IMG/VR virus record: IMGVR_UViG_3300030333_004689
Span: 1-30,789 of that record
DNA length: 30,789 bases
Origin: a virus
Strand: one strand, 5' to 3'
This document shows positions 9,173 through 24,082 of this stretch, piece by piece (within the stretch, counting starts at the first letter, position 1; the number at the start of each line of letters is the position of its first letter). The notes beneath the pieces are model-generated. The model saw nothing but the letters and a program-made list of their open reading frames with translations. It had not been told where the DNA came from and did not search any database. The position numbers and the translations under genes are program-made.

Positions 9173-9685
9173 TTGAACGAAGCTGAACAGTTAGCACTGT
9201 TAAAAGCTGGTCAGTACATGACCAGTAACACCGACTTAGCCGCTGCTCTTATGGCGTCAGGTGTTTCACCTATTGAAAACAGCCCTGTTTCAAATACCTA
9301 TAGCAAAGAAAAACCTTATACGCCTGGCAAGCCTGGTAATGTCTTATATCATTTAAAAGTTAGCTCTGACACTTTTAAAAATAAATCCAATACGCCAATT
9401 AGTGCGGAAAAATTAGCCTCTGGTTTTAATTCTACTGACGCCAATGAAGTGTTAGACGAATTAATAGAAAAAATACAAGACCAAGATTTAAAAGATAAAA
9501 TTAAGGAACAATTACCTTTAGCAATAATGAGCCACCACCGTGCAGCTTTTGGCAACCGTTCAATAATTCGTAAATGGTGGCGCAATGTACAGCCGTGGGT
9601 TTATATCCAGCGCGGAAACAAAAAGTTTTTATTACCAAGAACAGCAAAAAACACAGCAAAGAAATGGGGGCTAACCAATGAGTAA
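9173..9685 (+). CDS. Tail module protein of unknown function
   Basis: A 170-residue protein if it starts at TTG 9173; ATG 9218 (MTSNTDLAAALM) would shorten it by 15 residues. Charged and helical in the middle (NEVLDELIEKIQDQDLKDKIKEQL), with a basic, Trp-rich end (IIRKWWRNVQPWVYIQRGNKKF). It overlaps the next gene by 8 bp. It lies between tube and chaperone genes, so a role in tail assembly is likely, but I do not recognise the family. Confidence 0.6.
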   Translation: MNEAEQLALLKAGQYMTSNTDLAAALMASGVSPIENSPVSNTYSKEKPYTPGKPGNVLYHLKVSSDTFKNKSNTPISAEKLASGFNSTDANEVLDELIEKIQDQDLKDKIKEQLPLAIMSHHRAAFGNRSIIRKWWRNVQPWVYIQRGNKKFLLPRTAKNTAKKWGLTNE

Positions 9686-10103
9686 CGCATTTAATACTAA
9701 CCAGGCAGCGATAGCTGTAATTAATCCTGATGATGCTTTTGAAGACAGTGCTAGCTATGAATGGAAAGGGCGCCCGTTATATTTTGGGTTAAGGCATTAT
9801 TACGCTGTTATGAGCATTGGCAGCATGGCGAACATTTCAGACATAGAACGCATATTTTTAGTGTTGTGGATTGCTAGCCATAACGAAATAGAAATTAAAA
9901 AAATTAGAAAACTGTGGCGCACTGACCAAGATAAAATTTACGATGCTATTGAAGAAGTGCCATTTACTTTTGACGTACACACTGAAAAAGACACCGCACA
10001 ATTAACAAAATTAATTAACAGCATTTGGGACGACATTGAAGCAAGCCGTGACCAAATTGACACAGAAGAAGAAAAAGAAAATGACGCAGCGCCGGAAAAG
10101 TAG
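9678..10103 (+). CDS. Putative tail assembly chaperone (gpG-like)
   Basis: A 141-residue acidic, helical protein (YYAVMSIGSMANISDIERIFLVLWIA, and a Glu/Asp-rich end). Acidic helical proteins just before the tape measure are usually tail assembly chaperones, which coat the tape measure while the tube forms. Its last sense codons are GAA AAG, followed by UAG. The frame shifted back by one base is open for 63 more codons, giving a gpG/gpGT-type arrangement. The UAG is 10101-10103. Confidence 0.6.
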   Translation: MSNAFNTNQAAIAVINPDDAFEDSASYEWKGRPLYFGLRHYYAVMSIGSMANISDIERIFLVLWIASHNEIEIKKIRKLWRTDQDKIYDAIEEVPFTFDVHTEKDTAQLTKLINSIWDDIEASRDQIDTEEEKENDAAPEK

Positions 10104-10291
10104 GGGCCGCGTCTTTATATGTGGCTAGCTTGGCGCGTGTTTTACCAGGTCACAGCATAGATTATTATTTAGGCGTTATACCTTACGCGCAAGGTTTACA
10201 GCTTCAAAGCATAGACCTGGCACGGCAGGGCGTAAAATTTGAAGGCATAACGCAACCTGGTGGGGATTTTGCAGAGGTTGCAGGGTTTTAA
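10100..10291 (+). CDS. Frameshift extension of tail chaperone (gpT-like)
   Basis: In the -1 frame relative to the preceding gene, positions 10100-10291 are open and encode about 63 residues (VGAASLYVASLARVLPGHSI at the start, ending FAEVAGF). A stop in this frame at 10082-10084 means entry must occur between there and the UAG at 10101. The only plausible slippery site is G GAA AAG (10094-10100), directly before the UAG. A G-GT fusion of about 204 residues would result. Alternative: separate translation from GTG 10121. The reading frame would otherwise leave 190 bp of this packed genome unused. Confidence 0.6.
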   Translation, partial: VGAASLYVASLARVLPGHSIDYYLGVIPYAQGLQLQSIDLARQGVKFEGITQPGGDFAEVAGF

Positions 10292-10295
10292 AATC

Positions 10296-10323
10296 TATTC
10301 CCAAACAAAAAAAACACTATTTT
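10296..10323 (+). promoter_or_regulatory. Candidate late promoter, copy 4 (divergent half)
   Basis: TATTCCCA (10296-10303) preceded by TC rather than TTGACC, then 14 bp, then TATTTT (10318-10323), five bases before GTG 10329. Only the downstream half of the motif is kept, but the 14-bp spacing and the distance to the start match copy 3 exactly. Confidence 0.45.
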
Positions 10324-10328
10324 TACCT

Positions 10329-10913
10329 GTGGCTATAAAAACAAGTAACGTAAAACAATGGAGCAAAGCAATGGGCGCCTGGATGAAGGCCAGCCGAGGC
10401 AAAAGCCATGCTGATTGTATAAACCATTTTGGTAAATGGTCATTGATTAATGCCATGAAAAAAACGCCAAAAGCTAAACTTGGTAAATTTCCATTTAACC
10501 AAACAGCAAACCCCGAAAAAGGCGGCAAAACATATAAACAAAAATTTTACTATGCAATGGCAGCAAGCGCTGGGGTAGCACCAGAAAACATTAAAAGCGT
10601 TGCCATAAAAATGTATAGAGCTAAACGGCGAAGTAGCGGCGCAATAAAAGCCGGCTTTATTAAACCGTTGCAAATGTTAGGAGGCATACCAAAAAGCCGC
10701 GCCTTTGCTGGTGGTAGTGCTAGCAAATCACGAGGCAGAAGAGCAAAAGATAAATCATTAAAGGCAATGTCTTTTAACAATGTAGAAGCCTCTGGAAGTG
10801 TTGCATATTTTCCAATGATGGCAGCAATGAAAGAAACAGCAGTGCGGCAACACACATGGGCAATAAACAGGCTACAAAAAGCCAACAATAAATTTTCATC
10901 TAAACGTTATTAA
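10329..10913 (+). CDS. Basic virion-associated protein
   Basis: A 194-residue, strongly basic protein. The reading frame extends upstream to ATG 10260, but GTG 10329 (GTGGCT, as at 3635) is preferred: it clears the chaperone extension and lies five bases after the promoter-like hexamer. The text KWSLINAMKKTPKAK, RRSSGAIKAGFIKPLQMLGG and the basic Gly/Ser stretch (GGSASKSRGRRAKDK) resemble minor head or tail proteins between chaperone and tape genes in other phages. Overlaps the tape measure start by one base. Confidence 0.6.
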   Translation: MAIKTSNVKQWSKAMGAWMKASRGKSHADCINHFGKWSLINAMKKTPKAKLGKFPFNQTANPEKGGKTYKQKFYYAMAASAGVAPENIKSVAIKMYRAKRRSSGAIKAGFIKPLQMLGGIPKSRAFAGGSASKSRGRRAKDKSLKAMSFNNVEASGSVAYFPMMAAMKETAVRQHTWAINRLQKANNKFSSKRY

Positions 10914-11965
10914 TGCCAACTAAATCAAAATTAGAAACAGTTTTTACTGGTGACGACCGACCGTTTCAATCAGTTGCCAGGCGTGTAAGGGCAACAGGTG
11001 AAAGGTTAAACCGTGTAGGGCAACAATTTAGAGGCGCATTTTTAGCCATTGGTGGCGGTATGCTAGGCCGTTCTTTATTGGTTAACATTGACCGACTAGG
11101 AAAGTTAAGCACAAGATTTGATATTGCCGCAGAAACATTATTTAAATTAAAGCACGTTGCAGAAATTGGCGGCGCAGATTTAGAAACTTTAGCGAAAGGA
11201 ATGAAGACGCTAAACAGCACAGCACACGAAGCGGCGGTTAATGGATTGGCTACATATAAAAGAGAATTTGAAGCGGTTAATATTAACGTTGATGAATTTA
11301 ACAAGTTAAGCCACGAAGAAAGGTTAATTCGTTATGCCAATGCTTTAAATACAGCTAACGATAGGAATAAAGCATTTGCAGCCACAACTAAATTAATGGG
11401 CCGAGCAGGTGCAGAAATGTTTACAATATTAGAACAAGGTGGCGAAGTATTAGCCGCACAAATGGCAGAAGTAAACCCACCAAGTAATGAAGCTGTAGAA
11501 GCTATACAAGAATTAAACGACGCATTTACAAAATTTAAAAATAATATAATCGGGCCGGTGGCTGATGGGTTGCGTGTAATAATTGAAACTTTTCAAAAAG
11601 TTGGTTCTGTTGTAGCAGCGGCAGCCGTGGCAGTTGATAACTTTTTTAATCCAGATAAATACATGGGGGCTTCATTGGATGACATAATGATAGCAGCCGG
11701 GGAAGTATTTAATGAAATGGAGGAGGAAAAAAAGAGAAGAAAAAATAGTATAGATTTAAAACCAGAAATAGAAGAGCAAAAAGAAAAAGAAAAAGAATTA
11801 AAACGGTTTTCATCTAGCCAAATATTTCAACCGGCAATGGCTGGCGGTTTTTTTGGTCATGGTGCAGCAGCACAACCGGCAAAGTTTCCAGGTTTAACTG
11901 AATTGCAAAAAATGCAGGACGAACTAGCTGGGTTAAGAAGTGACATTAGAGAAAGTTTAAAATAA
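10913..11965 (+). CDS. Short tail tape measure protein
   Basis: A 350-residue protein with a basic N-terminus (SVARRVRATGERLNRVGQQF), a Gly-rich hydrophobic stretch (FLAIGGGMLG), long helices and a second hydrophobic segment (GSVVAAAAVAVDNFF, about 232-246). Charged coiled coil follows (EMEEEKKRRKNSIDLKPEIE onwards). These are tape measure features, and it is the largest helical protein between chaperones and distal tail genes. The usual 0.15 nm per residue gives a tail of only about 50 nm. One-base overlaps join it to both neighbours. Confidence 0.75.
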   Translation: MPTKSKLETVFTGDDRPFQSVARRVRATGERLNRVGQQFRGAFLAIGGGMLGRSLLVNIDRLGKLSTRFDIAAETLFKLKHVAEIGGADLETLAKGMKTLNSTAHEAAVNGLATYKREFEAVNINVDEFNKLSHEERLIRYANALNTANDRNKAFAATTKLMGRAGAEMFTILEQGGEVLAAQMAEVNPPSNEAVEAIQELNDAFTKFKNNIIGPVADGLRVIIETFQKVGSVVAAAAVAVDNFFNPDKYMGASLDDIMIAAGEVFNEMEEEKKRRKNSIDLKPEIEEQKEKEKELKRFSSSQIFQPAMAGGFFGHGAAAQPAKFPGLTELQKMQDELAGLRSDIRESLK

Positions 11966-12621
11966 TGCCTGAAGAAATTTATATAGGAAAAGCAAACCAA
12001 TGGAAACAACAGCGCGGCACAAGGTTCGGCACTGAATCCAATGGTAAAGATTTTGTTGAGTTACGTTATAGAGGCCCATCTAAAACAGCCGCAAGCTGGC
12101 GCGAACAATGGACTAAAGGCACAGCTTGCCCAGAGCCAGGCTTTAGGCATTGCGGTTTAATACATCCGCCTACAGTAATTGAAGAAAGTGCCGCTTTTTC
12201 TAATGCTGTTTTAAGGTTTGAAGGTATTTTTGGAAATAGAGAAGAAAGCCAAGACCCAGAAATAAGGCACAGCACACAGGAGGCGCATTTATCACATTAC
12301 CGAACAGGAGACGAAGACCCTACTGGAAGTTTATATTTATATCATCGTGTTATTGTTACAGCCACGTATATAAAAGAAACAAGGCCAACCAGCACAAGAT
12401 TTGATAACGAATTAAATAAAGATGCTGACCCTAAACCGGTGGCAAACGTTGAAGGCTCACAGCTACCAGGGGCATTAAGCTACAACGAATTAAGACTAAA
12501 CCAGCATTATATAGTAAAGCCCTGGCATACAATTCTAGAATGGTCAAAAATTGGTGATGTTTACAATGTTGTTGAAGAACATTCTAAATTTTTGCAAGAC
12601 GTACCTGGCGCCGCTGATTAA
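11965..12621 (+). CDS. Distal tail protein, unrecognised
   Basis: A 218-residue protein between the tape measure and the distal tail genes. It has several aromatic and Pro-rich strands (AASWREQWTKGTACPEPGFRH shortened here to AASWREQWTKG, LYLYHRVIVTATYIKE). Its ends overlap neighbours by one base (TAATG). The position matches minor tail or baseplate hub proteins. I see no domain I can name. Confidence 0.6.
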   Translation: MPEEIYIGKANQWKQQRGTRFGTESNGKDFVELRYRGPSKTAASWREQWTKGTACPEPGFRHCGLIHPPTVIEESAAFSNAVLRFEGIFGNREESQDPEIRHSTQEAHLSHYRTGDEDPTGSLYLYHRVIVTATYIKETRPTSTRFDNELNKDADPKPVANVEGSQLPGALSYNELRLNQHYIVKPWHTILEWSKIGDVYNVVEEHSKFLQDVPGAAD

Positions 12622-13454
12622 TGCACGAACCACCGCCAAAGTTAGAAAAAGGCTGGAAGCTCCACAAGGATGCTTACAATAATCTTTTAGATTATGTTGT
12701 TAAAACACGGCCTATTATTGCCCACGGTCATACCGAAACAAATAATGGAACAATGCCACCGCCGCAACCGGCGAAAACATTACATCAGTTTGCGCCTTTA
12801 CTTGGTGGAGACCCTTTAAAATTGGCAATACATCCAGGTTATGTTTATGGGCCGTATGATGATGGCAATTCTGAAACCACACCTATGGTACAACAATGGC
12901 CGTATGAACCAAAAATTGGCACAACACTTTTAACCGCTACAGAAACGCCTACTTTATCATTATCTACAGGTTCAACTAATTACGTATATTTAAAACTAAA
13001 GTGGTTAAAGGCTGAACAAGATATTGGAGGCAGTCAGGTAACAGACGGCGGCAGTGTTTACGGATTTAGAGCAGATTATAATTTACAAGCTGTTGTTGAC
13101 GGAGTCACTGGCACAGTTAGCGACGGCTCTGGTTATACAACTGGCATTCATGTAAAAGTAAAAAGGGTTATGTATTATTTAAGTGAATGCACTTTTGAAG
13201 TTAACCAAAATTCAACGCCTCCAACTGAAACGATTGGCACAAATATATTTACCTATATATTAGCCGGTCATATAACCCTAGACGTCAATGGAAGGCCAGC
13301 AGCAAGCGGTAACACTGAGCCAATAAGATGGTTTTTAAATGGGCCTGTTTTTGCTAATAAACCGCCTGATTATATAGGAACAACAGACCAGGACAGAACA
13401 GAACCAGTTGCACCAGTTGCGGCAAGTGGTGAAGTTATACCAGGGCATGCTTGA
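12621..13454 (+). CDS. Tail or baseplate structural protein
   Basis: A 277-residue protein. The N-terminal 60 residues are Pro/His-rich (PKLEKGWKLHKDAYNNLLDY). The rest is a Gly/Thr-rich beta region (TETPTLSLSTGSTNYVYLKL, GSVYGFRADYNLQAVVDGVT), and it ends with a Pro/Val/Ala linker. This style is typical of tail-tip or fibre-attachment proteins. Copy 5 of the promoter-like motif begins at its last bases (TTGACC overlaps the TGA stop at 13452-13454). Confidence 0.6.
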   Translation: MHEPPPKLEKGWKLHKDAYNNLLDYVVKTRPIIAHGHTETNNGTMPPPQPAKTLHQFAPLLGGDPLKLAIHPGYVYGPYDDGNSETTPMVQQWPYEPKIGTTLLTATETPTLSLSTGSTNYVYLKLKWLKAEQDIGGSQVTDGGSVYGFRADYNLQAVVDGVTGTVSDGSGYTTGIHVKVKRVMYYLSECTFEVNQNSTPPTETIGTNIFTYILAGHITLDVNGRPAASGNTEPIRWFLNGPVFANKPPDYIGTTDQDRTEPVAPVAASGEVIPGHA

Positions 13455-13484
13455 CCTATTCCCATTAATTAAAAGGGGTAATTT
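13451..13484 (+). promoter_or_regulatory. Candidate late promoter, copy 5
   Basis: Exact TTGACCTATTCCCA (13451-13464), then 14 bp, then TAATTT (13479-13484), eight bases before the ATG at 13493. It sits in the gap before the tail structural and fibre genes, so it would drive fibre and possibly lysis expression. Confidence 0.6.
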
Positions 13485-13492
13485 AACAGTGT

Positions 13493-14560
13493 ATGGTTCA
13501 CACTGTTAGGTTTACGGGCGAAAATTATTTTACGAATTCACATAATAGTGGAAGCGGCATATATTTTAGAAGCACAGCCGCCGCCGACGTTCAAGACGTT
13601 AAAGTCTATGGTAAAACAACAAGCGGCAGCAATGCGGCTAATGTTATATTTTCACCATCAAGCGGCCAGGGCAAAATAGAACAATTAAGCGCTACAGCCT
13701 GGTCAGATGTTTATTTAATTAAAGCAGATAGCGCATTAGCTGGCATTGGATCACTGTTTAGCAATAACGGAACAGCAGCAACCGGCACTATACATATTTG
13801 TTCACAACCTTCTAACAACGACACTTTAGAAATTGGCTTAACAGGCTTTACAAAAACATTTCGTTTTAGAAGTGCTACAATACCAAACAATGGAGACGTT
13901 CACGTAGGCAGTAGTACAACACAAACAGCCGATAATTTAGCCAGTGCAATTAATGACAGTTCTACAGGCAGCCCGTCAGGAGGTGAAGCTACAAGCGGAG
14001 ATACAGGCGGCTGGAAAAATACAGATGGGGCTAACCCTTATGTAACGGCTACAGCTAGCGGTGCAACTGTTACCTTAACAGACAAAATTAACGCTAATCG
14101 TCAATTAGCCTGGGTTACAACTGCAAGCAATACAGCAAGCCTAGGAGTTAGCGGCATTAGAGGAGGCATAGACGGCACTAAAATAGTCGACATACCGGCC
14201 ACAGGTGTTTCAGCTAGTTTTGACTCTACAACAGGCGTTAATTTAGATAGTGAAGATTTAAGCACAACAAACGTAAGCGGTGCAATTTTAGGGGGTAGTG
14301 ACTCAATGGCAGTTAGAGGCCGTTTTATAGTAGATATTAGAACAGAAGACCCTGGCGCCGCAGTATTAGCAAAAATACAAACAAGCAACGATAACACAAA
14401 TTGGCGCGACGCAAGCAGCACTATAACAGATTTAAATTCTGACCAAGATCAGATAATTAACGGCGATGATTTATTTGCTGAATATGCGCGTCTTAATTTT
14501 ACAAGCTGGAGCAGTTCAGCCGCTAAAAGTTTTAATATTAAATTTATTTCACAAGGTTAA
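13493..14560 (+). CDS. Tail structural protein, beta-rich
   Basis: A 355-residue Ser/Gly/Thr-rich protein. The centre (DTLEIGLTGFTKTFRFRS, then NGDVHVG and TADNLASAINDSSTG) is a motif seen in many phage distal tail and baseplate proteins. The C-terminal 100 residues (SMAVRGRFIVDIRTEDPGA, KIQTSNDNTNWRDASSTI) look like a beta-sandwich, possibly carbohydrate-binding-like. ATG 13493 is chosen: GTG 13489 runs into a stop within seven codons. It overlaps the fibre gene by one base. Confidence 0.65.
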   Translation: MVHTVRFTGENYFTNSHNSGSGIYFRSTAAADVQDVKVYGKTTSGSNAANVIFSPSSGQGKIEQLSATAWSDVYLIKADSALAGIGSLFSNNGTAATGTIHICSQPSNNDTLEIGLTGFTKTFRFRSATIPNNGDVHVGSSTTQTADNLASAINDSSTGSPSGGEATSGDTGGWKNTDGANPYVTATASGATVTLTDKINANRQLAWVTTASNTASLGVSGIRGGIDGTKIVDIPATGVSASFDSTTGVNLDSEDLSTTNVSGAILGGSDSMAVRGRFIVDIRTEDPGAAVLAKIQTSNDNTNWRDASSTITDLNSDQDQIINGDDLFAEYARLNFTSWSSSAAKSFNIKFISQG

Positions 14561-17500
14561 TGGCTCACAAATTTATAATAGACAACAGAAGCGGCCAACT
14601 CTATACAGATTTTTCTGGCCGTAGGGTAACAACAGCCGCCGAAATATTAAAAGCTGAAAGGGGTTTAAGCCCTACTTTACAAGTTCATGTCGTAAACGTA
14701 GCAACTGACACCAGGGCCGTAACAAATGAAACTATTTCTAACGCTAACGTTAGTTTAGTTATAGGTGAAGCTAGTGCTGTACCAGATAAAGGTTTATTAA
14801 AAGCTCAATGGAATGTTAGCGGTACACTTTACGAAAGCGCTAATTTAGATTTACAAAATTTAACTGCTGACTCATTAGCAACAGCTTTTAATAGTGCAGT
14901 TTATCCAGTTTATAATGCTGGTGGTTTAGATATTGCTGAAATTGGCAAAGGTAAATTTTTGCTTACAATGAAAAACACAGGGGCCGTTGACGGTACACCT
15001 GGATTAAATGTTGAAGCTATAGACCCACCGAGCGGCGTTGAAGTTACTACAGTCAGAACAGGAGACAGTGACACACGGGCGCAATACCTTCTTAGCCTGG
15101 CTAAACTGCCAGTTGCAAAAATTGCTAGTGGTTCTTGGTCTAGTGCAACAGATGGCAGTTTTACAGGTCTAAGCGCCAGCATTAGCCTAAACACAACGGC
15201 TATGCTGGCAGCAATTTCTAGAGAGCAACGAGAGTTTGAAATATCTATATTAAACGGCAACCAGGTTTTACACAGGTCTAGCGTTTTAATTAATGAAAGT
15301 TTAGACCCAACTGCAAGCGGCACTATTGTTATAACTTCACCAACACTATTTACACTTGGCAGCAATGCAATTTTACAAAGTGAAACTATAGCATTATCGG
15401 GTGGTTTAACCTATGACGGCACAACCTTAGCCGCTCCATTTTTGCCCTTGGCAGGTGGGACGATGACGGGTGATGCTTTGTTTGGTGATAATGTAAAAGC
15501 TAAATTTGGAACCGATTCAGATCTAGAATTATATTCTAATGATACTAACGTTTACCTTGACGCGAAAAAAGGGGATATGTATTTGCGAACCGTCAATGTA
15601 GGTGATGACATTTTCTTGCAATCGCTCGATGATATTTTTCTAAGACCTAATAATGGGACGGCAGGAATTTCAGTCAAAGCTGGCGGAGCCGTTGAGCTTT
15701 ATTTTGACGGAAGCAAAAAAATAGAGAGCACAGATTTAGGCTGCACCATTTCGGGTAAGCTAATAGTTAACGGGGATATGGATGTCTCAGGCACGACCAC
15801 AACCTTTAATTCAACAACCGTTACAGTTGACGATCCTATTTTTACAGTAGGCGGAGACACTGCGCCCGGCAGCGATGACAATAAAGACCGAGGGATTGAA
15901 TTTAGGTATTATTCTGGATCTGCCAAGATTGGCTTTTTTGGTTATGATGACTCAGAAGATGCTTTTACTTTTCTTACAGACGCAACCAATAACAGCGAGG
16001 TATTTAGTGGGACGTTAGGAAGCATCAAAGTTGGAGGCGGCACTGTTACAGGTACCTTATACGTTGGCGATAGCATTGACCATTGGGGTGATGGTGGCAC
16101 AGGTTTAAGTTTTCCGAGTAATGATGTTGTGGCTTTTAAAACAAGCGGCACCGAGGCGGCTAGGTTTGACTCAAGTGGTTTATTTAAATCTCTGGGTGAT
16201 ATAGAAAATTCAAAAGGCACTGAAAGCTCTATAAAAGCAAGTGAAACAACAAATGGTCATTTTCTACAATTATATCAGCAAGCAACAGACTCATATTTAA
16301 TTGCAGGAAAAGCAAGCGGCACACCATCCCAAAATTTAAGATTTTACACAGGTGGCACCGAGGCGGCTAGGTTTGACTCAAATGGTAAATTTATTTTTGC
16401 ATCAACAGCTTATGGAGCAAACACATCAGAAGATTATTTTAGAATTAAATTTGAAGACGTAGGAGGAACAGCAAACGACGTTGGCATTGGACAAAGTGCA
16501 AGCGGTTCAATGGATTTTAATATTAATCCTAGTGGTTCTTATATTTGGTCTAGAGGCACGTCAGGGGAAACAATGCGCCTCAACTCCACAGGCTTAGGCA
16601 TTGGAGGGACGCCAAGCTATCCATTAGTTGTTAAATCAACAAGCGCATCCCATCAAGTTGTTGCTGTCAATCGTCCTGACAGTGATACGGCTGCATTATT
16701 TTTGGGAAACAACTCAGGGCTTAATGGAATAATTTCAGCTAACAATTCAGATTTACTTTTTGGTAAAGATTTTGGTAATACATTTTTCGAGGGTTTTAGA
16801 TTAGACACAAATGGGAATTTAAGAGTTGGCAACGGTACAAATATTTTTCTATGGAGAGATAACAATAATAATTACCTAAATTATGCTAATTGGGTGGCAA
16901 GCACTGGCAGCGAGTTAACTGTTCAAAATAATGGATCTGGGGGCATACATCTAAAAGCAAACGGATCTAATGCAGATGTTGTGTTTTCAGCCAAAGACGG
17001 AACTACTCTTAACGAGTTAATGAGACTCGACGGCTCGGCTAGTTCTATCAATGTTCCTGATGATGTGCAATTAAATATTGGTTCTGGTATTGATTTAATT
17101 CACAATAGTTCAAATGGATTTTTCAAAAATACTGTTGGTGATCTTTTTGTTGAAAACACTGCAAGCGGAAAAGACACAATATTTAAAAATGATAATGACT
17201 CAGGCACAGCAACTGAACTTTTAAGACTCGACGGGTCGGCTAGTACGATTAAAGTCCCTGATGATATCAAATTGCAATTTGGTTCTTCAAATGATTTACA
17301 AATTTATCACACAACGTCCAATAATCAAAGTTGGATATATAACAGCACAGGACACTTAAAGCTAACTAATGCCGCTATTAATTCTGATATAGTTTTTTCA
17401 TGCAAAGACGCAACAACTGTAAACGAGTTAATGCGCCTCGACGGCTCGGCTAGTTCCATCAACGTGCCTGATGATGTTAGCGTTAAAGTTGGATCAAGTG

Positions 17501-18771
17501 GTGATCTAACTCTTTACTCCAATAATGCTAACTTGCATTATGATCATTATAATTTAGACACTGTTTTTAGACATTTTGGAACAGACAAAGATTTTATTTG
17601 GTACACAACGACTGGCGGCACAACGTCGGAAATTATGCGCCTCGACGGGTCGACAAGTTTAGTTAAAATTCAAGGTGAGGGAAGCGGTGAGGTTTTTATT
17701 GGCACAGCAAATTTTGGATCTGGTAATTATACTGGAATAGGTTTGGCAGGAGAATTAAACGCAGCTACTTATCACTTGTTAAGTTCAACAAACGATAAAA
17801 ATCTTTATCTAAACAGGACAAGCGGTGCAGATATGGTGTTTAACGAAGCTAACACTGCACAAATGCGATTAAAAGCAGGAGGGTATTTAGGAATTAACAA
17901 TAATAGTCCAACTAATTTGTTATCTGTTGTTGGTAAAAGTGACGATCAAACCTCAGTTGTAAAAATAACAAGATCACACGCAAGCGCATCTAATGACACT
18001 TATACATTGGACGTTGATAGCTCTTCTCATACGTCAAACATGACCGCAGGAGGTGCGTTTAGTGTTAAAGTTAATTCTGGAAAGGCTTTTAAAATTAATG
18101 GCAATGGCGACATTTTCCAAAATTACATTAATTACACAGATGAAAGCAACTACGAGGCTTTGAAAATATCGGCTGCGTCTGATCATGTTCAATTTACAAC
18201 TGAAACAGTCGGCACGTTTTCAAGCAATAACCGAAATTTTAAGTTTTATCAAAATGGTAGTACAAGGGCTGAAATTACCTCTAATGGAATAACTGCATAT
18301 AGCACTTTTTACACTGCAAGCGGTGGAGCGTTTAGGGCTTACGGACACGATAACATAATATCAACAGGAGGAGGCAGTCATGACATTAGATTTGAACCCA
18401 ATGACACCGAAGCGGTTAGAATATTTGCATCAACTTTAAGAATACATAGTGCAGAAGATAAATCTTGGACTGTTGGAGATACAGTTGCTTCCTTAGAATT
18501 TTTTAGTGCTGATCAAAGTGGGTCAGGACCAAACTCAGTTCGATCAGAAATAAATTTAGTAACTGAAAACACATTCGGATCTGCGCACAGTTTAAGTTTT
18601 GCAACTCGTGGAGATGCTTCAGGTTCACCAACAGAAAAAGCAAAAATTACATCAAGCGGAGATATGGAACTTGTGACTGACGGCAAAGGTTTAATTTTAT
18701 CATCACCTGATGGCACTCGTTACAAGATAACAGTTGCAAACGGTGGCGCAGTTACATCAACGGCAATGTAA
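14560..18771 (+). CDS. Long tail fibre protein, mosaic
   Basis: A 1403-residue fibre, the likely receptor-binding protein. Residues 1-290 are an attachment domain (MAHKFIIDNRSGQLYTDFSG; SREQREFEISILNGN). LPLAGGTMTGD (about 295-305) is a linker typical of phage fibres. The remainder is a repetitive beta shaft with units such as LMRLDGSASSINVPDDV, GTEAARFDS and SSGDMEL, as in fibres of marine T4-like phages. It ends TRYKITVANGGAVTSTAM, with no S74 chaperone domain. From about 15440 the DNA changes: Asp is mostly GAT instead of GAC, and 16 GATC sites occur. The distal part is therefore probably a recent acquisition. Confidence 0.85.
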   Translation: MAHKFIIDNRSGQLYTDFSGRRVTTAAEILKAERGLSPTLQVHVVNVATDTRAVTNETISNANVSLVIGEASAVPDKGLLKAQWNVSGTLYESANLDLQNLTADSLATAFNSAVYPVYNAGGLDIAEIGKGKFLLTMKNTGAVDGTPGLNVEAIDPPSGVEVTTVRTGDSDTRAQYLLSLAKLPVAKIASGSWSSATDGSFTGLSASISLNTTAMLAAISREQREFEISILNGNQVLHRSSVLINESLDPTASGTIVITSPTLFTLGSNAILQSETIALSGGLTYDGTTLAAPFLPLAGGTMTGDALFGDNVKAKFGTDSDLELYSNDTNVYLDAKKGDMYLRTVNVGDDIFLQSLDDIFLRPNNGTAGISVKAGGAVELYFDGSKKIESTDLGCTISGKLIVNGDMDVSGTTTTFNSTTVTVDDPIFTVGGDTAPGSDDNKDRGIEFRYYSGSAKIGFFGYDDSEDAFTFLTDATNNSEVFSGTLGSIKVGGGTVTGTLYVGDSIDHWGDGGTGLSFPSNDVVAFKTSGTEAARFDSSGLFKSLGDIENSKGTESSIKASETTNGHFLQLYQQATDSYLIAGKASGTPSQNLRFYTGGTEAARFDSNGKFIFASTAYGANTSEDYFRIKFEDVGGTANDVGIGQSASGSMDFNINPSGSYIWSRGTSGETMRLNSTGLGIGGTPSYPLVVKSTSASHQVVAVNRPDSDTAALFLGNNSGLNGIISANNSDLLFGKDFGNTFFEGFRLDTNGNLRVGNGTNIFLWRDNNNNYLNYANWVASTGSELTVQNNGSGGIHLKANGSNADVVFSAKDGTTLNELMRLDGSASSINVPDDVQLNIGSGIDLIHNSSNGFFKNTVGDLFVENTASGKDTIFKNDNDSGTATELLRLDGSASTIKVPDDIKLQFGSSNDLQIYHTTSNNQSWIYNSTGHLKLTNAAINSDIVFSCKDATTVNELMRLDGSASSINVPDDVSVKVGSSGDLTLYSNNANLHYDHYNLDTVFRHFGTDKDFIWYTTTGGTTSEIMRLDGSTSLVKIQGEGSGEVFIGTANFGSGNYTGIGLAGELNAATYHLLSSTNDKNLYLNRTSGADMVFNEANTAQMRLKAGGYLGINNNSPTNLLSVVGKSDDQTSVVKITRSHASASNDTYTLDVDSSSHTSNMTAGGAFSVKVNSGKAFKINGNGDIFQNYINYTDESNYEALKISAASDHVQFTTETVGTFSSNNRNFKFYQNGSTRAEITSNGITAYSTFYTASGGAFRAYGHDNIISTGGGSHDIRFEPNDTEAVRIFASTLRIHSAEDKSWTVGDTVASLEFFSADQSGSGPNSVRSEINLVTENTFGSAHSLSFATRGDASGSPTEKAKITSSGDMELVTDGKGLILSSPDGTRYKITVANGGAVTSTAM
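16147..16385 (+). repeat. Near-identical 32-bp repeat in fibre gene
   Basis: A 32-bp stretch beginning GGCACCGAGGCGGCTAGG occurs at 16147-16178 and 16354-16385 with one base difference. It encodes G-T-E-A-A-R-F-D-S. A diverged version is at about 18403. Such repeats permit recombination between fibre genes. Confidence 0.8.
16991..17670 (+). repeat. Four-copy fibre shaft repeat (RLDGSAS units)
   Basis: Four units share the core L(M/L)RLDGS: about 17018-17067, 17218-17270, 17428-17478 and 17630-17670. The first and third also share the preceding K-D-(G/A)-T-T-x-N-E and are nearly identical at DNA level. The unit spacing is about 200 bp (about 68 residues), which suggests duplicated shaft segments. 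Confidence 0.75.
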
Positions 18772-18780
18772 TAACAATTT

Positions 18781-18960
18781 ATGAAAGACCAACCAAACAC
18801 AACACTAACAAACGAGCAGTTTAATTTATTAGCTGCGTTAATTGACACAGGAATAAAAGCCGCAGGCTTGCAAGCGGTAAGCAATGACTTGCCCGGAGCC
18901 GTGCAAGCATTTGCTCAATTAAAACCAGAACAACCAGAGCCAGAAAAAACAGAAGAATGA
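18781..18960 (+). CDS. Small acidic protein after tail fibre
   Basis: A 59-residue protein, MKDQPNTTLTNEQFNLLAAL onward, ending in a Pro/Glu-rich tail (PEQPEPEKTEE). It starts 9 bp after the fibre stop and overlaps the next start by 4 bp (ATGA). An amphipathic helix (residues 10-45) precedes the tail. Small proteins here often act as fibre assembly helpers, but no family is recognised. Confidence 0.65.
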   Translation: MKDQPNTTLTNEQFNLLAALIDTGIKAAGLQAVSNDLPGAVQAFAQLKPEQPEPEKTEE

Positions 18961-19259
18961 AATTTGAATACACCTTAACAGATGACGAACTGGCAGGGGT
19001 TAGCAAATCACTGGAGGCGCACAACAATGCAAAGCCTCAAGAGATTGACAACCCCGACCACGTACCAAGTCAAGGCAGTCCAACAATGCCAGACCCAGAA
19101 AACGAAGGTGAGGAAATTGCAAATCCTGACTTTGTTGAGGCAGTCGGTGAGCCAAAAATACCAAACCCTGACTTGATCGCTGACGAAGATGCTTATTTGA
19201 ATTTTGTATTTTCTGAGTGCTTTAAGTCATACCAAAAACAGTTTGAACTTGATGGCTAA
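18957..19259 (+). CDS. Acidic hypothetical protein with NPD repeats
   Basis: A 100-residue, very acidic protein. It carries a loosely repeated segment: NPDHVPSQGSPTMPDP, NPDFVEAVGEPKIPNPD, each with Asn-Pro-Asp and Pro-(D/N)-P. The C-terminal 25 residues are helical (AYLNFVFSECFKSYQKQFE). Overlaps both neighbours. Function unknown; location suggests a virion or fibre-linked role. Confidence 0.65.
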   Translation: MKFEYTLTDDELAGVSKSLEAHNNAKPQEIDNPDHVPSQGSPTMPDPENEGEEIANPDFVEAVGEPKIPNPDLIADEDAYLNFVFSECFKSYQKQFELDG

Positions 19260-19524
19260 AGCAACCTGGTGGCAAAGACCAGGGCGGCGCCGACAACACC
19301 CAAAATTAAACATGAAAACACTTATAAAAAAATTGATTGAAAAGCATTTAGTGCAAGGCTGGGGAAAACGTCAGCTAATTAAACTAGGCGCTGTTGTCAT
19401 TCCTTACATTGGAATTAGTCAACATGATTGGGACGGCGTTATAGCTACTTCTGTAGCTGGCGCCCTGGTATTAATAGAAATAATTTTTTCTAAAATGAAC
19501 GCTAAGAGATTGGAAACTAAATAA
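19252..19524 (+). CDS. Small membrane protein, holin-like
   Basis: A 90-residue protein from ATG 19252, overlapping the previous stop by 8 bp. ATG 19312 (MKTLIKKLIEKHLVQGWGKR) is an equally possible start. A basic helix is followed by one or two membrane segments (LIKLGAVVIPYIGIS and GVIATSVAGALVLIEIIFS), then a basic tail. Size, topology and neighbours fit a holin or holin-like protein. Confidence 0.6.
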   Translation: MAKATWWQRPGRRRQHPKLNMKTLIKKLIEKHLVQGWGKRQLIKLGAVVIPYIGISQHDWDGVIATSVAGALVLIEIIFSKMNAKRLETK

Positions 19525-19716
19525 ATGAAAAACATAAAAGTAATTATTGGACTATTATTATTAACTGTTGCACCTAGCTGCACTATTTTAAAACCTGGCG
19601 GACCTGTAAGCGACCTAAACGCATTTGCTGGCGACCGTACTGTACTAGGCGCCGAAGTTGAGGTATTAGGCATTAAAAAAGTTGGTGCTGGTGTTTGGGT
19701 TAAAGACGTAGATTAA
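19525..19716 (+). CDS. Small lipoprotein, possible outer spanin
   Basis: A 63-residue protein with a lipoprotein-type signal: MKNIKVIIGLLLLTVAPSC, Cys19 being the probable lipidation site (lipobox TVAPSC is slightly off consensus). The mature part is 44 residues. It follows the holin-like gene without a gap and lies two genes before the endolysin. A small lipoprotein here could be a spanin that disrupts the outer membrane. It would imply a Gram-negative host. Confidence 0.6.
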   Translation: MKNIKVIIGLLLLTVAPSCTILKPGGPVSDLNAFAGDRTVLGAEVEVLGIKKVGAGVWVKDVD

Positions 19717-19902
19717 ATGAGTAACAAAGCATTAGGGCTAATAAATTTTACGTGTATTTTTATACCTATGTTATTGGGCATAATGGAAGCACTGACCGGC
19801 AAGCCAATGGGTAACGGCCCATTAGTGGGCATTGTTGGCATATTTATGATTATATTCGGAATATGGGCTAGCATTAGGCTTATTAAAATTGATAGCTATT
19901 GA
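19717..19902 (+). CDS. Two-helix membrane protein, candidate holin
   Basis: A 61-residue protein with two membrane segments: ALGLINFTCIFIPMLLGIME and GPLVGIVGIFMIIFGIWASI, separated by a short polar turn (TGKPMGNG). This is class II holin topology. It follows the lipoprotein stop directly (TAA-ATG) and ends 3 bp before the endolysin start. Confidence 0.65.
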   Translation: MSNKALGLINFTCIFIPMLLGIMEALTGKPMGNGPLVGIVGIFMIIFGIWASIRLIKIDSY

Positions 19903-19905
19903 TTT

Positions 19906-20211
19906 ATGTTTAGGCGTTTACGTCGATTTATTCGCCGTTTGGTGAGTAGAAAAAAACAACAGCCGGTAAAACCTAGGCTGCGTTTTGTTGTAGACGCCAG
20001 GAGTAAAGAAGTATTAGCAACGTTAGACAAACGGGTACAACCAACGTTTACGCAGCTTGTTCAAATAGCCAAAGCAATGGGGCAAAAATATGGCGTAGAA
20101 GTAAAAGCTATTTCTGGACACCGTAGTTATTCAAAACAAGCTGAGTTATACGCTAAAGGGCGAACAAAGCCAGGCAGCATAGTTACGCATGCAAAGCCTG
20201 GCTATTCCTGA
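19906..20211 (+). CDS. M15 endolysin, N-terminal part (interrupted by UGA)
   Basis: A 101-residue open frame with the first half of an M15-type peptidoglycan peptidase. A basic N-terminus (MFRRLRRFIRRLVSRKK) precedes DARSKEVLATLDKRVQPTF and the motif SGHRSYSKQAELYAKGRTKP, ending HAKPGYS. In related enzymes GxS is followed by one residue and HNFG. Here a UGA stop follows the Ser codon UCC (20206-20208). The active-site His, Asp and His lie in the next frame (+1). Ribosomal shifting, two-part expression or gene decay could explain this. Confidence 0.85.
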   Translation: MFRRLRRFIRRLVSRKKQQPVKPRLRFVVDARSKEVLATLDKRVQPTFTQLVQIAKAMGQKYGVEVKAISGHRSYSKQAELYAKGRTKPGSIVTHAKPGYS

Positions 20212-20494
20212 CCCCGTAAGGGGTTTTATAAAAGCTAAACATAACTTTGGAACAGCTTTAGATTTTGGCTGTTTTGACAAAAAAACCGGCGAATATTTAG
20301 ACGCTAAAGATGGTAAATTAGTAGCTAAGATTTACAGAGCCATATACAACGAGGCAGAACGGCAAGACCTTAGAATAACTTGGGGCGGTCTATGGCGCAG
20401 TTTTAAAGACACACCACATTTTGAATATATAACTGGCTTAACTATGGCCGAAATGCGCCAACGTAAAGAGGCCGGGTTGCCTGTTTTTGCATAA
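20189..20494 (+). CDS. M15 endolysin, C-terminal catalytic part
   Basis: In the +1 frame, this carries the zinc site of the M15 peptidase: HNFGTALDFG (His and Asp ligands) and DTPHFEY (third ligand), with WGGLWRSF between. The frame is open from ATG 20189, overlapping the N-terminal part by 23 bp. If entered by a +1 shift at UCC-UGA-C, reading resumes at GAC 20210 and gives DPVRGFIKAKHNFG, a protein of about 195 residues. That has about nine residues between S and xHNFG that the family lacks. It lyses the host wall by cutting the stem peptide. Confidence 0.8.
   Translation: MQSLAIPDPVRGFIKAKHNFGTALDFGCFDKKTGEYLDAKDGKLVAKIYRAIYNEAERQDLRITWGGLWRSFKDTPHFEYITGLTMAEMRQRKEAGLPVFA
20212..20233 (+). 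promoter_or_regulatory. Hairpin CCCC-GTAA-GGGG just after the endolysin UGA
   Basis: CCCC (20212-20215), the GNRA-type loop GTAA and GGGG (20220-20223) form a 4-bp G-C hairpin. TTTTATAAAA (20224-20233), itself self-complementary, follows at once. The hairpin begins directly after the UGA and lies inside a 28-nt stretch absent from related enzymes. It could stimulate recoding; alternatively it is a tiny terminator-like element. Confidence 0.5.
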
Positions 20495-20815
20495 ATGAAT
20501 TTGCCAATATTAGAAGCTATTAGCGGAGTATTAGCAGCGGTTGCTGCTTACTACTCTATAAAAGCTAAAAAAGAAGCTGGCGAGGCTAACAAGGCGGTTA
20601 ACCATACCGAGCCAGGGCAGCCCAGGCTGTACGACATTGCCTTAAATAACGCTACTAACCTGGCAACTATAAAAGAGAGGCAGCGCAATGTAGAAGCCAA
20701 CGTCGACGATTTAAAAGAAGGCCAGGACAAACACGCAAAGACCCTAGCTAAACATTCCCAATTATTAAAAGCCCACGGTAAATATTTAGAAAGTTTAACC
20801 TCAGATAATGACTAA
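20495..20815 (+). CDS. Membrane-anchored coiled-coil protein, spanin- or holin-like
   Basis: A 106-residue protein with an N-terminal hydrophobic segment (LPILEAISGVLAAVAAYYSI) and a long polar coiled coil (NLATIKERQRNVEANVDDLK through the C-terminus). It starts directly after the endolysin stop. An N-terminal anchor plus coiled coil fits an inner-membrane spanin; some actinophage lysis cassettes have a similar membrane protein. No transmembrane hairpin is seen. Confidence 0.6.
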   Translation: MNLPILEAISGVLAAVAAYYSIKAKKEAGEANKAVNHTEPGQPRLYDIALNNATNLATIKERQRNVEANVDDLKEGQDKHAKTLAKHSQLLKAHGKYLESLTSDND

Positions 20816-21544
20816 ATGCGTTTTACCTTTATAGCTGTTTCAGACACTCACGGCGAATTAATTGACCTAGACTATCAGAAAAAAGTTTTACAATTTGTAA
20901 AAGACCATAAGCCAAAAAAACGTTTTCATTTAGGCGACTGGTTAGACCTTCGAGCTTGTCGAGTGGGTGCAAGCCAGGAAGATAAAGCTAGCAGCCTGGT
21001 AAATGACATAAAAAGCGGTTTAGGCTTTTTAAAAGCATACAGGCCACACGTTTTAATGAGTGGTAACCATGACCACCGTTTAAACGTCATTGCCCAATCT
21101 GATAGAGACAGCTTAGAAATTGATTACGCTAGGCAATTACAAAAGCAAATAGACAAAGAGCTAAAAGCATTAAAGACAAAAGTTTACCCTTATGACGTTA
21201 GGCGTGGTTGGCACGAGTTTGCGCCAGGGCGCTTAATTGGCCACGGTTATGCTAGTTCTATTTATGCCGCCAAGCAGCACAGTTTAAATTTTGGCAGCGT
21301 TATAGTTGGCCACGTACATAGTTTTGATTTTCACAGGCTTGATAATTTAGCCGGTGACGAAAGCTGGACAATAGGCTGTGGCTGTAAAATTGAACAAGAA
21401 TATAACCGAACGCATAGGCGGCGATTAAAGCACCAAGTGGGCTTTGTTTATGGCGTGGCAGACGACAAAACAGGAGATTGGCAAATATGGCCAGTAAGAA
21501 GAACAAAAAACGGAATATGGCTAGACCCGACAAAAATAATTTAG
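20816..21544 (+). CDS. Metallophosphoesterase
   Basis: A 242-residue calcineurin-like enzyme with the complete metal-binding signature: SDTHG (D10, H12), LGDWLD (D41), GNHDH (about 81-85), a later His and GHVHS (about 165-169). Substrate unknown; such phage enzymes may be nucleases, 2',3'-cyclic phosphodiesterases or phosphatases. It starts directly after the previous stop and its end overlaps the next gene by about 58 bp. The distance from the lysis genes makes a role in lysis itself unlikely. Confidence 0.88.
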   Translation: MRFTFIAVSDTHGELIDLDYQKKVLQFVKDHKPKKRFHLGDWLDLRACRVGASQEDKASSLVNDIKSGLGFLKAYRPHVLMSGNHDHRLNVIAQSDRDSLEIDYARQLQKQIDKELKALKTKVYPYDVRRGWHEFAPGRLIGHGYASSIYAAKQHSLNFGSVIVGHVHSFDFHRLDNLAGDESWTIGCGCKIEQEYNRTHRRRLKHQVGFVYGVADDKTGDWQIWPVRRTKNGIWLDPTKII

Positions 21545-21765
21545 AAGAAGTTGCTAAGAAATTTCAAAGCCTTATTAACGCGCCTAAACAGCACCCTAGG
21601 CCGCCTAATTCTATAAGTGCCACAGAATACGCAGAACGGTCAAATATACATTATAAAACAGCCGCCGACTATTTGCGGAAGTTATATAAAGACGGTTACG
21701 CTAGGCGTTACAAGTGGGGTAAAATGTTTGTTTACGTCTTAGAAGAAGATGCAGAAAATACCTAA
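21487..21765 (+). CDS. Small winged-helix DNA-binding protein
   Basis: A 92-residue basic protein from ATG 21487; ATG 21517 (MARPDKNNLEE) is an alternative. Residues 40-85 form a wHTH: SATEYAERSNIHYKTAADYL, then KLYKDGYARRYKWGKMFVYVL as the wing. Candidate transcription regulator or replication accessory. It overlaps the previous gene by 58 bp, an unusually long overlap, so the later start is worth considering. It overlaps the next by 17 bp. Confidence 0.65.
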   Translation: MASKKNKKRNMARPDKNNLEEVAKKFQSLINAPKQHPRPPNSISATEYAERSNIHYKTAADYLRKLYKDGYARRYKWGKMFVYVLEEDAENT

Positions 21766-22054
21766 ACACGTTGAAATTATTGGGCATAAATACAGCGTTG
21801 TTATTTCTACAGAAATGTCAGAAGACGAATTAGGCCGTTGTGATTACAACAACCAAAAAATACTAATTAGCAAACACCAAGCTAGTGACACAATGCGCGA
21901 CACTTTACTACATGAAATAATACACGCTGTACACTGGCTTATGGGGCTAGGGGATAACAGCACAGAAGAGGAATACACAGCTAGAACGGCAACGGGGCTT
22001 CGCAGCGTTATGCTACAAAACCCCGAAGTCGTTAATTATTTGTTGGGTCGTTAA
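21749..22054 (+). CDS. Small HEXXH metalloprotein
   Basis: A 101-residue protein with HEIIHAVH (residues 55-62), a gluzincin-type zinc motif, and a downstream acidic stretch (STEEEYTART) that may supply the third ligand. It resembles small ImmA/IrrE- or SprT-like phage proteins. If active it could cleave a repressor, as ImmA does, but no substrate is evident. It ends one base before the stop of the leftward early genes, with no terminator between. Confidence 0.7.
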   Translation: MQKIPKHVEIIGHKYSVVISTEMSEDELGRCDYNNQKILISKHQASDTMRDTLLHEIIHAVHWLMGLGDNSTEEEYTARTATGLRSVMLQNPEVVNYLLGR

Positions 22055-22423
22055 TTATTCAAAACTATTAGTTTCTGGGTTAAACCATTTAATAAAACTA
22101 ATACCTACGCCGCGTTCAGCAGCTTTTAAAATATCTTTGTTTTGATAAATTGAGCAGTTAAAAGTAGTAATATTGTTTTTACATCTTGCTGAAAAAAATT
22201 CGTCAACAGTCCAATTACCTAAACCGTTTTCTTTTGGCTCATGTATAGCTAACACAGCATATTGACCATGTGTTAAAAGTTTTACTTTATAAAAGTTACC
22301 CCTAGCTCCAAATTCAATATTTCTTTTATTTTTTTCTAGCAATTCAGCAATTTTTTTTATTTTAGTTTTACTAAATTTGTAAGTTACTTTTTTAAGTTTT
22401 GGTTTTGGTTTTGTTTTTGTCAT
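22055..22423 (-). CDS. Lys-rich hypothetical early protein
   Basis: A 122-residue protein with a strongly basic N-terminus (MTKTKPKPKLKKVTYKFSKT) and a mixed alpha-beta core (YKVKLLTHGQYAVLAIHEPK, ending GVGISFIKWFNP). No family recognised. Its start is 17 bp from an operator-like 15-mer (22440-22455), with an upstream sequence nearly the same as that of the next gene, so both are probably co-regulated. Confidence 0.65.
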   Translation of the reverse strand: MTKTKPKPKLKKVTYKFSKTKIKKIAELLEKNKRNIEFGARGNFYKVKLLTHGQYAVLAIHEPKENGLGNWTVDEFFSARCKNNITTFNCSIYQNKDILKAAERGVGISFIKWFNPETNSFE

Positions 22424-22439
22424 TTTGTTATTGTGTTGT

Positions 22440-22455
22440 GGGTGGTTAACACCCC
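22440..22455 (-). promoter_or_regulatory. Operator-like 15-mer, copy A
   Basis: On the minus strand this reads GGGGTGTTAACCACCC, sharing GGGGTGTTAACCACC with copies B, C and D. It is a partial inverted repeat (GGGGTG / CACC) round TTAAC. It lies 17 bp upstream of the ATG at 22423. Confidence 0.6.
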
Positions 22456-22466
22456 GATTAAAAAAA

Positions 22467-22763
22467 TTATCTTAAAAAACTTTTTTTGTAAGCTATAACA
22501 CTGTCTAAAGTTTCAAGAGCGCTAGATAGTGTTTTATAAGTATTTTCATAAGCATTATCTACCCAACTGCCGCAACCAAACATAACCCAAATTTTATTAC
22601 CCATATAATCATATAAAGCTCCATCACCATATTCATTTTTAGACTGTCTATAAATTCCCCATGTGTTTTCTGTTCTATGCATTGCTTTTTTTACAATGTG
22701 ATAAATTTCACCATCTTTTTTTATAATATAATGGCCTTTTCTGTATTTAGTTTTATTTGTCAT
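22467..22763 (-). CDS. Hypothetical early protein
   Basis: A 98-residue protein, MTNKTKYRKGHYIIKKDGEI onward. The start at ATG 22763 is chosen because it has the same upstream layout as the gene starting at 22423; a longer frame would run back through the operator. The protein is basic and aromatic (WGIYRQSKNEYGDGALYDYM, WVMFGCGSWVD), with no motif I recognise. Confidence 0.6.
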   Translation of the reverse strand: MTNKTKYRKGHYIIKKDGEIYHIVKKAMHRTENTWGIYRQSKNEYGDGALYDYMGNKIWVMFGCGSWVDNAYENTYKTLSSALETLDSVIAYKKSFLR

Positions 22764-22779
22764 GCTGTTGTTGTGTTGT

Positions 22780-22796
22780 GGGGTGGTTAACACCCC
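22780..22796 (-). promoter_or_regulatory. Operator-like 15-mer, copy B
   Basis: On the minus strand GGGGTGTTAACCACCCC, a 6-bp inverted repeat (GGGGTG / CACCCC) with a TTAAC centre. It is 16 bp upstream of ATG 22763. Surrounding bases (CACAACACAA, CGGTT/CGATT) match copy A, showing that the whole control region was duplicated. Confidence 0.6.
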
Positions 22797-22804
22797 GGTT
22801 AAAA

Positions 22805-23197
22805 TTAAGCGGCTATGTATTCGCTATTAAAACGGTCATTAACATCTACATAATATGTACCAGCTTTACGGCGCCAGAATGAGCCAGGTACAGCCCTTTT
22901 AAATTCTTTTAAACGTTGTTTGTCATCCTGTGTAGTGAATTTTGCGTCACTTTTAAATATTACGCCGTCAACGTCGCACATAGCTAGAGCATTAGCTAAA
23001 CCGCAATCAGACCATTCACAGGTAAAACCCTCTTCAAATTTTTGGTCAATCATGAAATGAACTCTGTAAAAAGTTTCTTCGTAGTTTTCACCGTTTCTAG
23101 CCGGTGCTACTTTTGCCTCAACAATTTGTAAAATTTTGTTGCCTTCTGTTACTACTAATTTGATTAGTCTTTTTTTCATATACATTGTTTTGCTCAT
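22805..23197 (-). CDS. Hypothetical early protein
   Basis: A 130-residue protein from ATG 23197 (MSKTMYMKKRLIKLVVTEGN). That start lies nine bases from an ACTCGCA-type site; the longer alternative (MCEYIN, 23215) would overlap it. Rich in charged residues, with YEETFYRVHFMIDQKFEEGF and FWRRKAGTYYVDVND. No family recognised. Confidence 0.65.
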   Translation of the reverse strand: MSKTMYMKKRLIKLVVTEGNKILQIVEAKVAPARNGENYEETFYRVHFMIDQKFEEGFTCEWSDCGLANALAMCDVDGVIFKSDAKFTTQDDKQRLKEFKRAVPGSFWRRKAGTYYVDVNDRFNSEYIAA

Positions 23198-23205
23198 GTT
23201 TATAT

Positions 23206-23224
23206 ACTCGCACATTCTGCGAGT
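23206..23224. promoter_or_regulatory. Palindromic operator-like site
   Basis: ACTCGCA-CATTC-TGCGAGT: perfect 7-bp arms round five bases. On the minus strand it is followed by TATATAAAC and ATG 23197, the same spacing as at the XRE operon (3504). TATATA may be the -10 element, giving a very short leader. Confidence 0.65.
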
Positions 23225-23261
23225 TATGTAAAGGGCAAAAGTACATTTTTTTTATTTTTTT

Positions 23262-23498
23262 TTAATGGTCTGTTTTTACTAGGAAAAAAGGGGTTTTACT
23301 GCCAACATACGCGCCAACAATATTAAATTCGTAATGTTCTATGGCTTCTTCCCTGGTTAAATCTGAATTTTTTTGAATTAATTCAATGGTTTTTTCTTCA
23401 TCATAACAAGCTACCGGCTGAGTGCCACAGCGGTAAACATAACCTATTAAGGCGTCTTCTAAACCATCAGCAAAAAGCATTTTATTTTTATCAATCAT
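23262..23498 (-). CDS. Conserved phage hypothetical protein
   Basis: A 78-residue protein. FADGLEDALIGYVYRCGTQP, YDEEKTIELIQK, TREEAIEHYEFNIVGAYVG and TPFFL match a frequent uncharacterised phage family, whose members keep the 'E.A..Y.EFN..GAYVG...P.f' ending. Function unknown. Overlaps the upstream gene's stop by 4 bp (ATGA). Confidence 0.75.
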   Translation of the reverse strand: MIDKNKMLFADGLEDALIGYVYRCGTQPVACYDEEKTIELIQKNSDLTREEAIEHYEFNIVGAYVGSKTPFFLVKTDH

Positions 23499-23746
23499 TT
23501 AAATCTAGCTAGCCACTCCTGGGCTAAATATTGCGCGTAATCTTTTGCTGATTGTAAACCCTCAGTTAAATCGTAATGCGCGTTGTTACGATAAAATGAA
23601 CAAACAAAACCTTCAGCAATGTCTTGCCCGTGCGCGTGTTTAAAATCTTCTACAGCAAATTTAAATTCATCCCTAGGTAAACCACGCTGGTTATACGCTA
23701 AAGCAAAAGCCGCATCTATAGAACAAGCTATATTTAAATCTTCCAT
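23495..23746 (-). CDS. Hypothetical early protein
   Basis: An 83-residue, mildly acidic, helical protein (SIDAAFALAYNQRGLPRDEF; GLQSAKDYAQYLAQEWLARF). It overlaps the gene on each side (13 bp upstream, 4 bp downstream). No motif recognised. Confidence 0.65.
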   Translation of the reverse strand: MEDLNIACSIDAAFALAYNQRGLPRDEFKFAVEDFKHAHGQDIAEGFVCSFYRNNAHYDLTEGLQSAKDYAQYLAQEWLARFK

Positions 23747-23952
23747 GCCGTCATATTTAAATTTTTACCCTGGTTAATTTTATGAACAGCCCTTTCAAAT
23801 TTAAGCCGCGTTCTTCCACATTCTTCAACACAGATTTTATTAAATACCTGGCTGCTAACTTCTGTTTTAATTTGTGGCTTTGGCCAGGTTGGCTTTTCTA
23901 AATCTGTTAGTACAAAATAGCTTTTTTCTTTTGGCATAAATGTTTTAAACAT
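23734..23952 (-). CDS. Hypothetical early protein
   Basis: A 72-residue protein if started at ATG 23952 (MFKTFMPKEKSYFVLTDLEK). TTG 23970 would add six residues, but ATG is preferred. Basic, with EVSSQVFNKICVEECGRTRL in the middle. It follows the candidate structured RNA (23981-24061), which would lie in its 5' leader. Confidence 0.6.
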   Translation of the reverse strand: MFKTFMPKEKSYFVLTDLEKPTWPKPQIKTEVSSQVFNKICVEECGRTRLKFERAVHKINQGKNLNMTAWKI

Positions 23953-23980
23953 CACTGTTATTTTATACAAAATTTAAGGA

Positions 23981-24061: not shown

Positions 24062-24062
24062 C

Positions 24063-24076: not shown

Positions 24077-24082
24077 AAATTG

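Follow-up and report, generated by a model that had tools for sequence, protein, structure and literature searches.

Why should a tetranucleotide that is scarce over most of a phage genome be frequent in one part of a single gene? In the viral DNA analysed here (the window, 30,789 nt), an exact count located 24 GATC sites, 16 of them between positions 15520 and 18581, inside the tail fibre gene, and 8 elsewhere. All 24 had been listed at these positions by hand in a first-pass annotation, which read the contrast as the mark of a GATC-cutting restriction system acting on the phage lineage and of a recently acquired receptor-binding part. To evaluate this reading, we calculated GATC expectations under several models, compared the fibre with those of related phages and examined whether other short words follow the same pattern.

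Distribution of GATC sites along the window

Outside the fibre, base composition predicts ∼97 GATC sites, close to the ∼100 anticipated by the first-pass annotation, and 8 were found. The expectation falls to 30 with an order-1 Markov model (dinucleotides), to 33-37 when synonymous codons of the outside genes are shuffled (7 sites found in the shuffled genes) and to 18.3 with a maximal-order Markov model (trinucleotides). The deficit is thus real, although its size had been overstated, since the controlled models give a 2- to 5-fold and not a 12-fold reduction. Once trinucleotide content is taken into account the deficit is modest (8 versus 18, or 9 versus 26 when the window is taken together with L016, a phage contig described below); GATC is nevertheless depleted beyond both composition and codon use, as in restriction avoidance. 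Inside the cluster, the 16 sites compare with ∼11 expected by base composition, trinucleotides or codon shuffling, the figure that the annotation had given, and with 8 expected by dinucleotides.

If length alone is considered, at least 16 of 24 sites would fall in this 10% of the window with a probability of 3e-11, and taking synonymous-codon expectations as exposure raises the value to 2e-6. Both values are optimistic, the limits of the interval having been set by the sites themselves. In a whole-gene test, where the interval is not chosen, the fibre gave P = 4.6e-5 and was the most extreme of 737 ORFs from 44 related loci, the next one reaching 0.012. The contrast between inside and outside is therefore strong. 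The features to which we refer below are collected in Table 1.

Table 1. Coordinates and properties of the main features of the window.
Feature	Position	Strand	Properties
GATC-poor left part: terminase, portal, capsid and tail genes	1-15471		3 GATC; PHROG matches
Accessory block common to the window and L016	3024-3593	-	83-87% nt identity over 3035-3237 and 3485-3593; 66-aa ORF with 86% aa identity to L016
N-terminal fibre anchor, conserved	14560-15471	+	68% aa identity to L012 and L011; 0 GATC; T|C junctions 7 versus 13.9 expected; no break in avoidance
Distal fibre cassette, swapped	15472-18630	+	∼residues 305-1357; unalignable to L012; 16 of 24 GATC; no T|C avoidance; codon chi2 141
Recombination tract, 146 bp	16027-16172	+	3 mismatches to L013/L016 (98%); flanks ∼70% or unalignable
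GATC-dense half of the cassette	16934-18581	+	13 of the 16 sites; varied codon contexts
C-terminal fibre tip, conserved, 46 residues	18631-18771	+	76% aa identity to L012; 80% nt identity over 18676-18797
GATC-poor right part: lysis, replication, recombination, integrase	18772-30789		5 GATC; PHROG matches
Tyrosine integrase	28524-29714	-	phrog_1, E = 2e-31; nearest annotated relatives in Akkermansia phages, 31% aa identity to Akkermansia phage Chantilly

In the right part of the window, a VanY/M15-like endolysin peptidase gene (19906-20494) is divided into two overlapping ORFs, while it forms one frame in L012. At the break there are ∼28 additional bases, which include a hairpin and a T-run (ACCCCGTAAGGGGTTTT) and occur once in the window and in none of the other loci compared.

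Replacement of the middle of the tail fibre

The fibre, 1403 aa long, can be aligned with that of the sibling phage L012 only at residues 1-309 (68%) and 1358-1403 (76%), and in the full alignment the near-identity of the anchor ends with LPLAGGTMTG, identical in both, at residue 304. The anchor has been conserved and what follows replaced, as in modular fibre exchange, and fibre architecture and homology suggest that the distal portion is the putative receptor-binding part. The edges of homology and those of the GATC cluster nearly coincide: the first clustered GATC follows the left edge of homology loss (∼15472) by 48 bases, and the last one precedes the right edge (∼18631) by ∼50 bases. Composition changes at the same boundary. 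Junctions between a codon ending in T and one starting with C (T|C) occur at 0.42 of expectation outside and at 1.10 in the fibre, and this avoidance, present in the anchor and absent from all four blocks of the cassette, stops where the fibre homology breaks (residues 304-309). No other part of the genome departs as far in codon usage as the cassette (chi2 141, df 40; 36-101 in outside blocks of equal length), so that the fibre does differ from its neighbours, and the excess of GAT among Asp codons noticed in the first-pass annotation was confirmed (0.59 in the fibre versus 0.43 outside). Two further words, GCAGG and CTTA, are also released from avoidance in the cassette, and GAWTC is still low (1 versus 5.7 expected).

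The near-identical tract inside the cassette, shared with L016, a phage otherwise unrelated to that of the window, shows apparently recent recombination within the fibre. In database comparisons, residues 310-540 resembled L016 and also fibres from myoviruses of Prochlorococcus and Synechococcus (41-54%), and the rest of the cassette had no match in annotated phages and only ∼33% identity to one viral contig. The cassette is itself mosaic. Recent import of the receptor-binding part, as the annotation had proposed, holds in so far as the distal part of the fibre has been swapped as a module, with edges that match the change in GATC; it is incomplete as an account of a mosaic cassette in which GAWTC remains scarce.

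A mirror image of this pattern was found in two siblings. The DNA of L011 and L012 is 82% identical up to ∼240 bases past the fibre anchor, where different cassettes begin, and on backbones with normal GATC both cassettes contain 0 sites versus 6.4 and 5.2 expected (P = 0.0017 and 0.0056). At the whole-gene level, among the 737 ORFs, the lack of GATC in these fibres was not significant, and we therefore take the mirror pattern as suggestive. This reversal suggests that cassettes may move between GATC-avoiding and GATC-tolerant genomes. Gene 24 of Verrucomicrobia phage P8625, a lectin-domain gene (L095, 17789-19543) that is GATC-poor (2 versus 7.0 expected) on a GATC-rich backbone, was considered as a further mirror case and discarded, not being significant after correction for 737 tests.

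Avoided words, relatives and host

The dinucleotides TC and GA are scarce outside the fibre (rho 0.52 and 0.69, respectively), and the low number of GATC sites is partly due to this general shortage. Other words are missing too. With the codon control, AAGCTT (0 versus 13.4 expected), CCCGC (0 versus 14.8), CAGCTG (0 versus 9.1), GAWTC (3 versus 22.2), GCAGG (6 versus 27.5) and CAATTG (1 versus 10.4) were depleted outside the fibre, and the avoided words other than GATC add up to 13 versus 112, a sum over words picked after being seen. A pressure on GATC only was therefore rejected, given the broadly low GA/TC and the avoidance of these words. We take GATC, AAGCTT, CCCGC, CAGCTG, GAWTC and CAATTG to be the recognition words of MboI/DpnII, HindIII, FauI, PvuII, TfiI and MfeI, respectively. 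The avoidance looks restriction-driven, in that it concerns specific short words, most of them palindromic (CCCGC is not), and affects GAWTC and not GASTC, which is not depleted overall. The restriction proposed in the annotation would accordingly fit the kind of words lost, GATC being one of several. Deamination in TC contexts as the cause of TC loss was also discarded: TT/AA are not above the level of relatives and the loss of AAGCTT and CCCGC would be left unexplained.

Since the avoided words had been selected for their depletion, a fair test has to be a held-out one, in which words chosen on the window alone were pooled and their observed/expected ratio was computed in other phage contigs. 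The ratio was 0.29 in L016 and 0.88-1.43 in 12 control contigs, same-lineage phages included. We considered as same-lineage those phages related by terminase, capsid or fibre anchor (∼30-82% aa identity in structural genes). Eight of them (L002, L003, L004, L006, L007, L009, L011 and L012) carry ordinary numbers of GATC and L005 is lowish (12 versus 26). L016, a 13.8-kb contig of which L013 is part, contains 1 GATC and has the same dinucleotide profile as the window, while its portal, protease and capsid differ from those of the window. Searches of viral contigs with the integrase, the exonuclease and the 66-aa ORF of the accessory block gave no close relatives except L016. The claim that the phage lineage itself had long faced a GATC-cutting system was thus not supported, since same-lineage kin are ordinary in GATC and an unrelated phage shares the avoidance; this points to a restriction pressure that would belong to a host pool shared by the window phage and L016 rather than to the lineage.

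The host is probably a marine Verrucomicrobiota. Three observations support this assignment: the L016 capsid shares 63% identity with its P8625 counterpart, the window integrase is Akkermansia-like, and an Opitutae MAG contains a relative of the L016 capsid. The assignment is kept at probable because the search with the L016 capsid group returned two MAG contigs and the second one is labelled Flavobacteriales. A search of genome contigs with the window terminase found nothing. The order of the Opitutae MAG (373 genomes) was screened for a host with the signature by CCWGG pairs, and pieces of 20 genomes minus the last five were read; none of those read matched the signature. The DpnII family is present in 7 of these 373 genomes, so that a GATC cutter is available in that bacterial group. 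The window proteins scanned included no recognisable DNA methyltransferase, so that self-methylation is not indicated. The 24 GATC sites leave the phage cuttable by a GATC enzyme, and the pressure would thus be relaxed, intermittent or left behind when the fibre changed.

CCWGG is over-represented outside 15472-18630 (103 sites, 2.3-fold over the codon expectation) and CCSGG is low there; L016, L002 and L003 likewise over-represent CCWGG, and many related phages lack CCWGG and are enriched in CCSGG. The absence of CCWGG from the fibre was dropped as a second marker of foreignness, as the cassette amino acids predict only 1.4 sites.

Explanations for a GATC-rich fibre cassette

We consider it likely that a phage bearing an integrase lost GATC and other words under Type II restriction in a pool shared with L016, and that an unpurged fibre cassette was imported by recombination. 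GATC and several short words would have disappeared from most of the genome, most likely through Type II restriction selection in the host pool, and the cassette would have been swapped in by recombination between the homologies of the N-terminal anchor and the C-terminal tip. Its donor would not have been under GATC pressure and the imported block would have remained unpurged since then, so that GATC density would mark the import. Under this reading, words lost nearly genome-wide and kept in a 3.1-kb fibre segment would both record past restriction and point to the receptor-binding part as imported, an import possibly accompanied by a change of host. Several facts count against it: the GATC deficit is modest beyond trinucleotide content and the 24 sites leave the phage open to cutting, the scarcity of GAWTC in the cassette is unexplained by a wholly unpressured donor, L016, with which the cassette has recombined at one end, is itself GATC-poor, neither a host genome with the signature nor a matching enzyme was found in the genomes screened, and temperate phages less commonly eliminate their sites in full (Rusinov et al. 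2018, PMC6286503).

The contrast could instead be a by-product of the amino acids of the fibre (Asp-X and Gly-Ser pairs) and of its repeats, given that all the cassette sites are GAT C.. or.GA TC. codon pairs and that the fibre contains repeated segments. The same amino acids with the outside codon usage, however, would give 5.4 sites and not 16, and T|C junctions and codon usage shift at the boundary too. Repeats do not account for the sites, since codon contexts are varied and the main 75-base repeat has GATC in only one copy; we regard this explanation as very improbable. Equally little credit is due to a chimeric contig in which metagenome assembly joined a fibre fragment of another phage. 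The source is metagenomic and near-identical tracts such as the one shared with L016 are places where assemblers can jump, but a single intact frame of 1403 codons leads from a conserved anchor to a conserved tip, both of one fibre family, and the fibres of siblings are likewise built of anchor, variable part and tip.

A host bias against TC/GA, in mutation or in codon use, operating without restriction on a phage whose fibre would be foreign for unrelated reasons, deserves somewhat more weight and still appears unlikely. TC and GA are indeed broadly scarce outside, and the trinucleotide expectation is just 18. Against this, L062 and L081, phages with similarly low GA, retain GATC at 1.6 times expectation, so that a dinucleotide bias need not entail GATC loss; such a bias would also leave aside the avoidance of GAWTC and not of GASTC and the entire absence of CCCGC and AAGCTT.

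Avoidance of restriction sites is a strategy widespread among phages and directed mostly at orthodox Type II systems (PMC6286503). Like the dsDNA phages of Rusinov et al. 2018, the window shows several short, mostly palindromic words depleted beyond composition; unlike them, it combines an integrase gene with near-elimination from which one gene segment is exempt. Modular exchange of receptor-binding proteins is also well documented, for instance in Klebsiella phages (PMC8262889), whose fibres resemble that of the window in the conserved N-terminal anchor, the replaced distal part and the intragenic recombination, and differ from it in that the window also keeps the C-terminal tip and that its import is visible by restriction-word content. 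In the open-access literature searched, we found no work joining site avoidance with fibre swapping in this way. Each phenomenon is well known. Taken together, they would allow an imported receptor-binding part to be recognised from sequence alone: the resident genome bears the signature left by restriction pressure, and a block that has not been purged contrasts with it at the resolution of a gene. If this holds generally, host switches could be sought in metagenomic phage contigs with no need for cultures, and phages with unrelated genes, such as that of the window and L016, could be assigned to one host pool by the avoided words that they share. A broader idea, which we find possible but doubtful, is that the fibre cassettes of marine verrucomicrobial phages form a circulating gene pool of their own and preserve a record of the restriction words of earlier phages and hosts, with GATC-rich cassettes on GATC-poor backbones and vice versa, so that discordance between backbone and cassette might be readable as the trace of a switch in host range.

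P8625 (KP792622, PMC4642752) is connected to these observations through its capsid group, which includes L016, the sharer of the avoided words; it differs from the window in showing no GATC avoidance (198 sites) and in having a capsid unlike that of the window. A different word, GGNCC, is nearly absent in most P8625-like marine contigs (L017-L095), P8625 itself having 1 GGWCC versus 33 expected and 1 GGSCC versus 45, which suggests that a widespread pressure on GGNCC may act on P8625-like marine phages.
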